Shown here: in pieces, positions 11,569-15,554 of the stretch | How the letters are laid out: every line of letters begins with the position of its first letter | Numbering within the stretch: the first letter of the stretch is position 1 | Source: Sphingopyxis soli | Lineage (GTDB): Bacteria > Pseudomonadota > Alphaproteobacteria > Sphingomonadales > Sphingomonadaceae | Direction of reading: 5' to 3' | Assembly: GCF_018682675.1 (NCBI RefSeq) | Contig: NZ_JAFMTR010000068.1 | Location: forward strand, 1-64,000 | Length of the DNA stretch: 64,000 bases | Translations under genes and position numbers: made by a program | The notes under the pieces: model-generated | What the model was told of the DNA's origin: nothing | Seen by the model: the letters and a program-made list of their open reading frames with translations, nothing else | Database searches by the model: none

Positions 11569-13233
11569 CTAAGCCCCATTCGCCGCGCTAAGTATCGCCC
11601 GCACGCTCGCCGTCGCGACGTCGGTATCCAGCCCGCACCCGAACAGGCTCTTGCCGTCGGCGGTGCGGCATTCGACGTAGGCCGCGGCCTGCACATTGCT
11701 GCCCTGGCCGATCGCGTGCTCGCTGTAGTCGACGATGTCCATCACGGGGCCGCCGCTTTCGCGGAGCGCGGCGATGACGCTCGACATCAGGCCGTTGCCG
11801 CGCCCGCTGACGCTGCGGGGGGTGCCGTCGATGGTGAGCTTGCCGGCGAAGATGCGGTCGGCGCCGCTGTGCGTTTCCGACCAGTCGACGAGCTGGAAGC
11901 GCTTGGCTTCGGTCGTCAGATACTGGCGTTCGAAGGCGTGCCAGATGTCCTCGGCGCCGAGTTCGCGGCTGGTTTCGTCCGCCAGCGCCTGGACGACATG
12001 GCTGAAGCTCGCCTGCATCTTCTTGGGCAGTTTCAGCCCCTTGTCCTGTTCGAGCACCCAGGCGACGCCGCCCTTGCCCGACTGGCTGTTGACGCGGATC
12101 ACCGCTTCGTAGCTGCGCCCCAAGTCGGCGGGGTCGATGGGCAGATAGGGGACTTCCCAGCGCTCGTCATTCTGGCGCTCGCGCGCGGCGAAGCCCTTTT
12201 TGATCGCGTCCTGATGGCTGCCCGAGAACGCCGTGTAAACGAGCTCGCCGCCATAGGGGTGGCGCGGGTGGACGGGCAGGTTGTTACAATATTCGACCGT
12301 CTGGATGACCTCGTCGATGTTCGAGAAGTCGAGTTCGGGATCGACGCCCTGCGTGTACAGGTTGAGCGCGACGGTGACGAGGCAGGTGTTGCCGGTGCGC
12401 TCGCCATTGCCGAACAGGCAGCCCTCGACGCGGTCGGCGCCCGCGAGCAGGCCGAGCTCGGCCGCCGCGACGCCGGTGCCGCGGTCGTTGTGGGTGTGCA
12501 GGGAGATGATCGCGGTGTCGCGGTTCGGCAGGTTCTTGCAGAAATACTCGATCTGGTCGGCGTAGATGTTCGGCGTCGACGCCTCGACCGTTGCGGGGAG
12601 GTTGAGGATGATCGGGTTCTCGGCCGTCGGCTGGAGGATCTGCATCACCGCCTCGCAGCATTCGATGCTGAAATCGAGTTCGGCGGTCGAGAAGGTTTCG
12701 GGGCTGTACTGGAAGCGCCAGTCGGTGCCGGGGAGGCGCGCGGCATTGTCGCGGAGCTGCTTCGCGCCCTCGATCGCGATGCCCTTGATCTCGGGCATTT
12801 CCATGTTGAACACGATCTTGCGCCACGCGGGGCTGACCGCGTTATAGACGTGGACGATCGCGGTCTTCGCGCCTTCGAGGCTGTCGAAGCTGGTGCGGAT
12901 GAGGTCGGCGCGGCTTTGCGTCAGCACCTGCGGGGTGACGCCCTCCGGGATGCGGCCGCCGCGGACGAGGCCCTGGATATAGTCGAAGTCGGTCGCGCCG
13001 CTGGCGGGGAAGCCGACCTCGATCTCCTTGAACCCGCACTTGACCAGCAGGTCGAAGAAGCGGGTCTTTTTCTCGGCATCCATCGGGTCGATCAGCGACT
13101 GGTTGCCGTCGCGCAGGTCGGTCGAGAGCCAGATGGGCGCCTTGGTGGTGACGCGGCCGGGCCATTCGCGGTGGCTCAAGGGAACCTGCGGGAAGGCGCT
13201 ATATTTGACCGAGGGGTCGCGGAGCATGGTCAT
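11569..13233 (-). CDS. leuA: 2-isopropylmalate synthase
   Basis: LeuA condenses acetyl-CoA with 2-ketoisovalerate, the first committed step of leucine synthesis. The 554-residue protein is of the longer LeuA type: a DRE-TIM (HMGL-like) barrel with LSTDLRDGNQSLIDP near the N-terminus, metal-binding HTHNDRGTG in the middle, and a C-terminal LeuA allosteric domain that binds leucine for feedback inhibition (ending in ATASVRAILSAANGA). The ATG at 13233 or 13227 is possible; only two residues differ. Upstream lies a leucine-rich leader peptide at 13318-13368 and sequence that can pair with it, so expression is probably controlled by leucyl-tRNA supply as well as by feedback. Confidence 0.96.
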   Translation of the reverse strand: MTMLRDPSVKYSAFPQVPLSHREWPGRVTTKAPIWLSTDLRDGNQSLIDPMDAEKKTRFFDLLVKCGFKEIEVGFPASGATDFDYIQGLVRGGRIPEGVTPQVLTQSRADLIRTSFDSLEGAKTAIVHVYNAVSPAWRKIVFNMEMPEIKGIAIEGAKQLRDNAARLPGTDWRFQYSPETFSTAELDFSIECCEAVMQILQPTAENPIILNLPATVEASTPNIYADQIEYFCKNLPNRDTAIISLHTHNDRGTGVAAAELGLLAGADRVEGCLFGNGERTGNTCLVTVALNLYTQGVDPELDFSNIDEVIQTVEYCNNLPVHPRHPYGGELVYTAFSGSHQDAIKKGFAARERQNDERWEVPYLPIDPADLGRSYEAVIRVNSQSGKGGVAWVLEQDKGLKLPKKMQASFSHVVQALADETSRELGAEDIWHAFERQYLTTEAKRFQLVDWSETHSGADRIFAGKLTIDGTPRSVSGRGNGLMSSVIAALRESGGPVMDIVDYSEHAIGQGSNVQAAAYVECRTADGKSLFGCGLDTDVATASVRAILSAANGA

Positions 13234-13243
13234 GGGGTGTAAA

Positions 13244-13368
13244 CTTCTTCTGCGGAGTTGGTGTCGCTTGTCGATCGGACCCTTGAGCGGGTGGCCGCGA
13301 CAGCTGCGCAGCCAGTGTCACGCCCAAGGGCGTGTAAGTCGCAGAAGAAGAAGGGCGTTGCCGCGCAT
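13244..13368 (-). promoter_or_regulatory. leuA leader with leader peptide and long-range pairing
   Basis: In the leuA transcript the leader codons CTT CTT CTG CG (complement of 13340-13350) are exactly complementary over 11 nt to CGCAGAAGAAG (complement of 13244-13254), which lies 11 nt before the leuA ATG and includes its only AGAAG-type ribosome-binding sequence. A second perfect hairpin, CACGCCC/GGGCGTG (13319-13334), spans the leader stop codon. A ribosome stalled on the leucine codons would prevent the long-range pairing and free the leuA start. I see no terminator with a T-tract here, so translational control is as likely as transcription attenuation. Confidence 0.6.
13318..13368 (-). 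CDS. leuA leader peptide (16 aa, leucine-rich)
   Basis: A 16-codon minus-strand frame reads MRGNALLLLRLTRPWA and stops with TGA, 84 nt before leuA. Five of 16 residues are Leu, four of them consecutive (CTT CTT CTT CTG), then Arg and Leu. This composition immediately upstream of a leucine-synthesis gene is the signature of an amino-acid-responsive leader peptide. No strong ribosome-binding site is visible (CACCCCC precedes the ATG), which is the main weakness of the call. Confidence 0.7.
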   Translation of the reverse strand: MRGNALLLLRLTRPWA

Positions 13369-13494
13369 GGGGGTGCCAATGATGCAAAATGTCGCGCTTG
13401 GCAAGGGGGGAGTGCGAAAATTGCGTGGCTGCCACCCTTCCGTCATCCCGGCGAAGGCTGCGACGACGAGGGTGGCTTGGGCCGCCTGCTCCGG

Positions 13495-13983
13495 TTACCC
13501 CGTCACCCACTCGACCTTCGGATCGCGCAGATCGACGACGTCGGCGAGCTCGGCGACGTTGGGATAGCCATAGCCGACGAGGTTGATGAAGGTCTGGATA
13601 TTGAGTGCGAGCGCGGCCGCCTTGACGGGCACGGGGCTTTGGTTGTTCGAGAAATTATTGTTGCAATAGATGAGGATGGGGCGGTTCGCATCGGGACCGA
13701 TCACCGCCGCGAGGCTCTCCGCCGTGAAATCGGTGAGCGGCAGGTTGACCGCGCCCGCGATATGCCCCGCGGCAAAGGCGTCCTTCGAGCGCGCGTCGAG
13801 GAGCAGGGCGCCAGGCTTCGCGGCCTCGGCCTTGAAGCGATCGAAGGCGAGCAGGCGGTCGGCGCGCTGCGGCGCGACGCGGGCGGTGAGCGTCTGGAAC
13901 GCGGGATAGTCGATCTGGGGGTTGGCCTGCGCCAGCGCAGGGGTGGCGACGAGCGCCGCGGCGACCAGCAAGGCTTTGCGCAT
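13495..13983 (-). CDS. Secreted single-domain rhodanese-like protein
   Basis: The 162-residue protein has a Sec signal peptide (about 1-20, MRKALLVAAALVATPALAQA) and one rhodanese domain. LLDARSKDAFAAGHIAGAVN carries the conserved Asp63, and the active-site loop starts at Cys107 in LIYCNNNFSNN. The Cys suggests sulfurtransferase or other thiol chemistry in the periplasm rather than a catalytically dead domain; the loop is Asn-rich, unlike the classic CRKGVT loop, so the substrate may differ. It is a single gene with no clear operon partner. Confidence 0.85.
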   Translation of the reverse strand: MRKALLVAAALVATPALAQANPQIDYPAFQTLTARVAPQRADRLLAFDRFKAEAAKPGALLLDARSKDAFAAGHIAGAVNLPLTDFTAESLAAVIGPDANRPILIYCNNNFSNNQSPVPVKAAALALNIQTFINLVGYGYPNVAELADVVDLRDPKVEWVTG

Positions 13984-14056
13984 GATTTCCTCCCTTGAAG
14001 AGCGGCGACGTTATGCGCGCGCCATGCTGGCTCTGCGATGAATGCGGCTTGCTGCC

Positions 14057-14467
14057 TCAGGGGGTTCCGGCGCGGCGCGCCTCGAACCATTGGCGCAGCG
14101 CCGCGGCGGCGCAGCCGGTGAAGCCGTAGCTGCCGACGGGCGAGCAGCTGTCGGGACGCGTCTGGCGCGCGACAGCGTCATACCCCTCGACCTTCGACGC
14201 CCACGAGCCTCCGCCGGCGGGCGCCTCCTCATTCTGGTGGCGCAGATCCTTGGGTACGCGGTAGCGGTCGGATTCGGGCTGCTGCGCGCAGACGACGATT
14301 TCGTCGCCCGTCGTCTCGGGGCAGGGATCGTCGCCATAGGTGTAGAGGATCGACGTCCTTTGCGGTGGAGACCCGGTCTGCGCGAGATCGTCGTCCTGCG
14401 CGTGCGCGTGCGCGGGCGCGGCGAGCGCCGCGAGGAGGAGGATCGCATAAGGGGCAGGTGTCTTCAT
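14057..14467 (-). CDS. Secreted hypothetical protein with conserved cysteines
   Basis: The 136-residue protein begins with a signal peptide (MKTPAPYAILLLAALAAPAHA) and has five Cys in the mature part (DPCPE, VVCAQQ, PDSCSP, GFTGCAA), compatible with two periplasmic disulfides. The start at 14467 is preferred over an ATG at 14476 because AGGGA then has normal 9-nt spacing. The block GDEIVVCAQQPESDRYRVP is typical of small sphingomonad exported proteins of unknown function. Confidence 0.7.
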   Translation of the reverse strand: MKTPAPYAILLLAALAAPAHAHAQDDDLAQTGSPPQRTSILYTYGDDPCPETTGDEIVVCAQQPESDRYRVPKDLRHQNEEAPAGGGSWASKVEGYDAVARQTRPDSCSPVGSYGFTGCAAAALRQWFEARRAGTP

Positions 14468-15094: not shown

Positions 15095-15554
15095 GGGATC
15101 GGTTCGGGTTGGGTTGGGGAGCGGATGTTCGATCCTCCCCGCTTGCGGGGCGGTGGCTGCGCCCTTCGATTGTCTTGCAGGCGCTCAGGATAAACTGCGT
15201 CTCCGGCGCAGCGCTGACGGAGGGGCTCGCGTCGTGCCGCAGCGCCGCTTCAGGACGCCAGCCCCTCCACCGCCTTCGGCGGTCCCCCTCCCCGCAAGCG
15301 GGGAAGATTTTGTGGCAGCACATTCGACAGCCGGTCGAGCCGACGACAGGCGGCCGCCTTGCCGGGTGCGCCCGCGATCCCGGGGCGAGCCCCTTCGGTG
15401 AAAAGGCCGCTTCGGAGAGAAGCTCGCCCGCGCTCCGTTCGTCCCGCCGTTGCCACGGCTCGACCGAACGGGGGTATTTTCGGGCGCGCTGGCGCGTTTG
15501 ACGGGCATCGCAAACCCCATGCATTCCCGATGCAATCCAAGGAGAAAGCCCGAA
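15095..15554. other. 460-bp gene-free stretch with a hairpin-rich repeat
   Basis: No credible gene is present. Positions 15133-15303 look like one intergenic element. It is bordered by CCCCGC-TTGCGGGG (15137-15150) and CCCCGC-AA-GCGGGG (15290-15303), and also contains GGAGGGGCT / AGCCCCTCC (15219-15227 and 15260-15268) and ACCGCC-TTC-GGCGGT (15269-15283). The right part (15304-15554) should contain the promoter of the next gene, but I cannot pick it out. Confidence 0.5.

Follow-up and report, generated by a model that had tools for sequence, protein, structure and literature searches.

A leucine-rich leader that probably controls translation of leuA in sphingomonads by pairing with its start region

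The leuA gene of Sphingopyxis soli, which encodes 2-isopropylmalate synthase, is preceded by a short reading frame crowded with leucine codons. This arrangement raises the question of whether translation of the frame governs the gene behind it, and at which step. A preliminary description of the locus, which lies in a 64,000-nt stretch of DNA referred to here as the window, held that part of the leucine codons can pair with the sequence just before the leuA ATG. It proposed that a ribosome stalled on these codons would open the leuA start itself, making the leader a translational rather than a terminator-based switch.

Both sequence features are present as described (Table 1). The leader reads ATG CGC GGC AAC GCC CTT CTT CTT CTG CGA CTT ACA CGC CCT TGG GCG TGA, so that its leucine codons comprise the run CTT CTT CTT CTG and a further CTT after CGA, and its stop codon lies 84 nt from the leuA ATG. 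The complementarity between the leucine codons and the start region is exact over 11 nt, "just before" the ATG amounting to a gap of 10 nt. In the entire 64 kb, the 11-mer of arm 4 is present at two places only, namely 13244-13254 on the minus strand and 13340-13350 on the plus strand, the second being the complementary copy within the leader. Shuffled sequence would yield 0.06 matches, and none of 100 shuffles contained two or more. The RNA of 13220-13400 (minus strand) has a predicted folding energy of -59.7 kcal/mol (z -2.33) relative to 200 dinucleotide shuffles, whose energies average -50.4 (sd 4.0) and six of which fold as well. The 11-bp outer helix formed by arms 1 and 4 appears in the MFE and centroid structures alike. 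Nested inside this helix is an inner one, formed by arms 2 and 3; in the folds, arm 2 alone can also form a small self-hairpin.

Table 1. Features of the leuA locus, in window coordinates
Feature	Position	Strand	Remarks
leuA, 2-isopropylmalate synthase, TIGR00970 (leuA_yeast) type	11569..13233	-	769.8 bits against a cut-off of 697.4
Leader ORF, MRGNALLLLRLTRPWA and stop	13318..13368	-	16 codons, five of them Leu
Arm 1, CTTCTTCTGCG, 5' side of outer helix	13340..13350	-	within Leu codons; exact complement of arm 4; in fold
CGACTTA box, in frame CGA CTT A..	13335..13341	-	conserved in the family and in other alphaproteobacteria
Arm 2, CGCCCTTGGGCG, 5' side of inner helix	13321..13332	-	3' end of leader ORF; pairs with arm 3, with compensatory changes in the family
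Arm 3, CGCTCAAGGG, 3' side of inner helix	13280..13289	-	31 nt downstream of the leader-end arm
Arm 4, CGCAGAAGAAG, 3' side of outer helix	13244..13254	-	overlaps the likely leuA ribosome-binding region
Promoter-like pair, TTGCCA (13404-13399), 17 nt, CATTGG (13381-13376)	13376..13404	-	read by eye

The promoter-like pair ends 7 nt upstream of the leader ATG, so that transcription of the leader may begin at this codon or beside it; a similar spacing recurs in many family sequences (TTTACA/CTGGACA...CATAGG). It is put forward as a candidate promoter, since a sigma-70 consensus scan returned no site at 13376..13404. On the minus strand of 12700-14100 no terminator-like site was found, the single such site in this interval lying on the plus strand, against 1.1 expected by chance, and no T run precedes leuA in the window. 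The earlier observation that a T-tract terminator is not visible thus holds. A search of the window and 14 related stretches against Rfam 15 gave no family above its gathering threshold, and three weak matches far below. Directly upstream of the leader region lies an ORF (13495-13983, minus strand) that, judged by eye from a remembered motif, is presumably rhodanese-like. Further along, positions 15104-15300 probably belong to a dispersed repeat family: 25 short matches to them lie in the rest of the genome, several at the ends of contigs.

If the leader served leuA, it should accompany the gene in relatives, and the preliminary description had named its conservation as a check. LeuA was sought in 60 genomes: the one that contains the window, 35 congeneric ones and 24 from other families of the order. 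It was matched in 56, that is, in the window's own, in all 35 congeners (78-94% identity, one match covering just part of the protein) and in 20 of the 24 others (27-34%). All 36 genus upstream regions first examined, including the window's own, contain the leader, and 33 of these, judged by eye, have exactly LLLLRLTRPWA. The three variants carry Gly in place of Arg (L011), LPLL (L035) and LPRPRA (L044). One further congener, G147, has no match to the leader-core pattern at up to three mismatches, but its leuA (75% identity; L370) does carry a leader, MAMIGKVALLLRLIRPWA, and the inner arms; the CAGAAG/GAAGAAG arm was not found before this leuA. In total, all 37 genus genomes examined have the leader, and in 36 of them CAGAAG or GAAGAAG precedes leuA.

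Beyond the genus, a 27-base leader core, searched with up to three mismatches in 296 genomes of the order, was found in 79, all from the window's family; the reversed pattern gave one match among the matches listed. Because such a search selects by the leader itself, a second one selected by the leuA gene. LeuA of type TIGR00970 is encoded in 173 of 259 family genomes; of the 86 without it, G136 and the g39 genomes were covered, through the leader pattern. From the family, 99 leuA loci outside the genus were taken for their spread over genera. The leader was recovered in 95 of them by the first patterns and in 97 by a slightly looser set, spanning 52 genera, so that the leader frame passes the conservation check in genus and family alike. 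Of the 95 readable leaders, 47 end in RLTRP and 19 in RLTRPWA. By a rough count over 160 leaders, four leucine codons precede the conserved end in 93 and three in 41. Two loci inspected by eye were left out for want of a core pattern: L168 (G426) has a short SLLRL* frame and no arm 2, and L169 (G335) has both inner arms and no CGACTT.

A scan of GTDB genomes for CGACTTACNCGCCCTTNGGCG returned at least 119 stretches. The 80 titles viewed are those of sphingomonads, except for three MAGs (Alphaproteobacteria/Proteobacteria) and one labelled Mesorhizobium. In 115 of the 119 stretches listed, a leuA motif lies in the next 700 nt; among the remaining four, three run out less than 190 nt past the match and the fourth is L273. 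The same kind of leader also precedes the distant LeuA type TIGR00973 in four family genomes. Two of these proteins, L367 and L061, score 693.8 and 644.7 bits against a cut-off of 598.7, while L368 and L369 were assigned by sequence. Of the ten pairs of the inner helix, L061 retains all, and L367, L368 and L369 retain eight each.

The inner helix, which did not figure in the preliminary description, is strongly maintained. Among the 97 gene-chosen sequences from 52 genera, between 91 and 97 retain any given one of its ten pairs, and pairs 4, 5, 6, 7, 9 and 10 show changes on both sides; pair 6, for instance, is A-T in 56 sequences and G-C in 40. Across 163 sequences (36 from the genus, 30 found by leader and 97 found by gene), a sequence's own inner arms match at 9.84 of 10 positions, compared to 9.09 when arms are swapped between types. 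One member of this set, L043, carries a wrongly placed arm 3 (the TGCGCGCGGG row), which also entered the pairing and folding tests.

Whether the arms of the outer helix likewise change in concert, as the preliminary description had asked, depends on the depth of the comparison. Within the genus, own and swapped arms gave helix scores of 22.69 and 22.40 (14 of 200 permutations as good) and duplex energies of -15.37 and -15.45, and a positional test gave z 1.5, compared to 2.6 for its reversed control. Here the arms are nearly invariant, so that covariation is uninformative, and in G147 the CAGAAG/GAAGAAG arm is missing. Outside the genus the arms are not independent: at 127 loci, own arms scored 17.07 against 14.81 (sd 0.23) for swapped ones, and none of 200 permutations reached the own score. 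When each genus was represented by a single sequence (n=51), duplex energies were -15.2 to -15.9 for own arms and -12.5 to -13.1 for swapped arms, a gain of 2.7-3.0 kcal/mol that none of 2000 permutations equaled in any of the five draws made (z -6.6 to -7.5). The reversed-string control also showed a difference, of 1.0-1.3 kcal/mol (z -2.8 to -3.6; 0 to 8 of 2000), and part of the outer-helix signal thus stems from relatedness or composition.

The signal is also well localized. For the two leader types it peaks over the 25 nt directly upstream of leuA, with z of 5.7 and 6.1 against 1.1 and 3.5 in the reversed controls, the 3.5 being that of the P* type. Further upstream it is weaker (z 2.9 and 1.8), and between the leader and the arm 3 region it is absent (z -0.4 and 1.6; controls -0.3 and 1.5). 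Among genera the register of the helix shifts, as in CTGCTTCG:CGAAGCAG, CGCAACGGA:TCCGTTGCG and CTATCGCT:AGCGATAG, and in the latter two the start region pairs with leader codons that are not CU-rich. By sequence comparison, then, leader frame, inner helix and long-range outer helix are all conserved, the last in varying register. A separate candidate, GATAAGGC before leuA in some relatives, was considered as a second promoter and set aside: in the folds of L049 and L116 it falls within the 3' strand of the outer helix, though it may still have a promoter role.

Two further analyses bear on the choice of codons and on its predicted consequence. They used groups of 36 genus loci and of 61 and 63 other loci, leaving out L137, L158 and L062, whose leader ATG was not found in the range searched. 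On average, 27%, 28% and 33% of the synonymous variants outdo the actual leader in pairing with the start region of the same locus, against 50% expected; for the window leader the figure is 13%. Conversely, 6 of 61 leaders and 7 of 63 fall behind three quarters of their synonymous variants in this respect. When the leucine codons are masked in predicted folds, as if by a ribosome whose footprint was given a size taken from general knowledge, the unpaired fraction of the start region rises from 0.48 to 0.71 in the genus, and from 0.49 to 0.56 and 0.42 to 0.54 in the other two groups. The predicted start region becomes more open in 36 of 36 genus loci, 46 of 61 and 53 of 63, and is not freed in 15 of 61 and 10 of 63. 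With a ribosome footprint masked at the leader stop instead, the fractions are 0.48, 0.49 and 0.46, compared to 0.48, 0.49 and 0.42 for free RNA, which leaves the start about equally closed.

The leader ORF also harbors the heptamer CGACTTA, whose conservation is likewise new relative to the preliminary description. At the 97 gene-chosen family loci the sequence is CGACTT in 87 and CGACTA in 10, followed by A in 96. The search pattern required the letters CG and CT, which leaves the third base (A in 97 of 97), the sixth and the seventh as the positions that carry information. Of the two family loci failing the pattern, one has CGACTT and one lacks it. The peptide would permit codons other than CGACTT, and the heptamer is kept nearly letter for letter in a way that neither the peptide nor the helices seem to demand.

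How does this arrangement compare to known leaders? With the enterobacterial leu leader and other classical attenuators it shares a peptide rich in the regulated amino acid and an outcome that would be set by the position of the ribosome; it differs in that no intrinsic terminator hairpin with a T tract was found, nor an Rfam match. With ermC-type translational attenuation it shares a stalled leader ribosome that would open a masked downstream start, and the window indeed holds a leader ORF together with a helix predicted to mask such a start. In contrast to the ermC type, the stall signal would here be uncharged tRNA at leucine codons, and the masking strand is formed by the leader codons themselves.

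The closest likeness is to the LEU element predicted for actinobacterial leuA. The part of its description drawn on here reports a leader with a leucine run, a base stem between this run and the Shine-Dalgarno sequence, and a pseudoknot (Seliverstov et al., 2005; PMC1262725). The idea of such a base stem is thus not new in kind. The sphingomonad locus likewise has a leader ORF with a leucine run before leuA, a base stem to the Shine-Dalgarno region, of 11 bp in the window, and an internal stem, and the same part of that account describes no terminator. The sequence of the inner stem differs, and in other genera the sphingomonad base stem also uses non-leucine codons. Four actinobacterial leuA regions (L295-L298) were read for comparison, and all have leaders with LLL or LLLL. 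L298 combines a 10-bp base stem, GCTTCTTCTT:GAGAAGAAGC, with a 12-bp inner stem; the base stem is shorter in L295, the best base helix of L297 lies outside the leucine run, and L296 was judged by reading only. CGACTTA is absent from all four and occurs in some Rhizobiales leaders. A possible common descent with the actinobacterial element would draw on the homologous leuA, on the shared topology and on these Rhizobiales leaders rather than on aligned RNA sequence. Leader peptides of leuA also feature in the accessible parts of reports on Streptomyces lividans and Corynebacterium glutamicum (PMC8079986; PMC4046766), and the corresponding parts of reports on Caulobacter and Sinorhizobium describe other leaders with no mention of one for leuA (PMC4117421; PMC10117765).

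We therefore consider the sphingomonad leader to be probably a translational attenuator of leuA that senses leucine supply, a variant of LEU-element type control. The comparative and folding results favor the translational rather than terminator-based switch originally proposed. The mRNA would be nearly leaderless, with the leader translated first. When leucine is ample, the ribosome would reach the leader stop and leave arm 1 free to pair with arm 4, shutting the leuA start. When charged Leu-tRNA is short, the ribosome would stall at the leucine codons and cover arm 1, the start would stay open, and LeuA would be made. The inner helix may shorten the loop and so aid closing of the outer helix. 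In such a scheme a transcription terminator would be unnecessary. Leader and fold-back onto the start are kept in most of the relatives examined and resemble the LEU element, which suggests that the cell probably opens leuA when leucine runs short. Likewise, the mutual fit of leader codons and leuA start across 51 genera points to a switch read by the ribosome. If true, this would provide a large family, for which a search of the openly accessible literature found no description of a leucine leader, with a mechanism of leucine control.

Three other explanations deserve weighing. The plainest holds that the leader is a conserved, unregulated upstream ORF, and that complementarity is a by-product of CU-rich leucine codons facing an AG-rich ribosome-binding site. 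The near-invariant arms and non-significant permutation tests within the genus would fit this account, as would the capacity of GAAG or AGAAG to act as a weak Shine-Dalgarno sequence. It sits poorly with the other registers found in other genera, some involving codons that are not CU-rich, and with own pairs that outperform both swapped pairs and most synonymous alternatives, and we regard it as the least probable of the three. A somewhat better, if still small, chance belongs to transcription attenuation that is controlled by the leader ribosome and acts through Rho or an unusual terminator, in which case transcription would end early, ahead of leuA or inside it, and closure of the start by arm 1 would merely expose untranslated RNA to Rho. 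Coupling of blocked translation to Rho is well established, the stretch from arm 3 to leuA looks C-rich and G-poor by eye in the window and many relatives, and 9 of 39 and 5 of 58 family loci have a TTTT no more than 30 nt from the start. However, no intrinsic terminator was found on the minus strand of 12700-14100, T runs are lacking in the window and few in relatives, and the outer-helix signal peaks at the leuA start region itself.

Between these two in likelihood, and thus also improbable, is the proposal that the folded leader serves as the target of a protein or of another factor acting in trans, the peptide being incidental. This is what the 2005 authors favored for the LEU element, in the part of their paper drawn on here, while leaving its mechanism open (PMC1262725). 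They doubted ribosome control because changed leucine codons were reported, in work cited there, to have no effect on regulation, and by analogy this report would count against ribosome stalling in sphingomonads as well. The retention of CGACTT beyond the needs of the peptide, in the third base and in a leucine codon confined to CTT or CTA, could also reflect a binding site. Yet the leader retains its leucine codons, and its codon choice favors pairing with the start region of the same locus over most synonymous alternatives.

The heptamer extends well beyond the family. Among 40 alphaproteobacterial leuA loci sampled from 61 outside the family (one, L336, being cut by a contig end), CGACTTA occurs within 450 nt upstream in 27, compared to one each for the reversed and the complementary string. 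In 17 of the 40 it is found at least twice, mostly in a pair of consecutive short frames that resemble leaders, of which the far one often resembles LRLTxP and the near one RLIGG (L314, L315, L317, L320, L321, L324, L328-L330, L332-L335, L337, L338, L341 and L345). In the wider phylum, none of 20 leuA loci, sampled from 80 outside the family, has it. Conceivably, an ancient leucine-sensing mRNA element stays with alphaproteobacterial leuA and works through ribosome stalling, with CGACTTA as a signal of its own, outside peptide and helices, that many loci carry twice; we lean against this reading at present. Leader-like short frames, some with CGACTTA, are also seen before homologous leuA genes on large plasmids or chromids, namely in Rhizobium (L299), Shinella (L300), Cupriavidus (L301), Ochrobactrum (L302), Burkholderia (L305) and R. 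leguminosarum (L306), the Shinella example with CGACTTA reading CTTCGACTTATCGGCGACCGCTGGGCCTGA.
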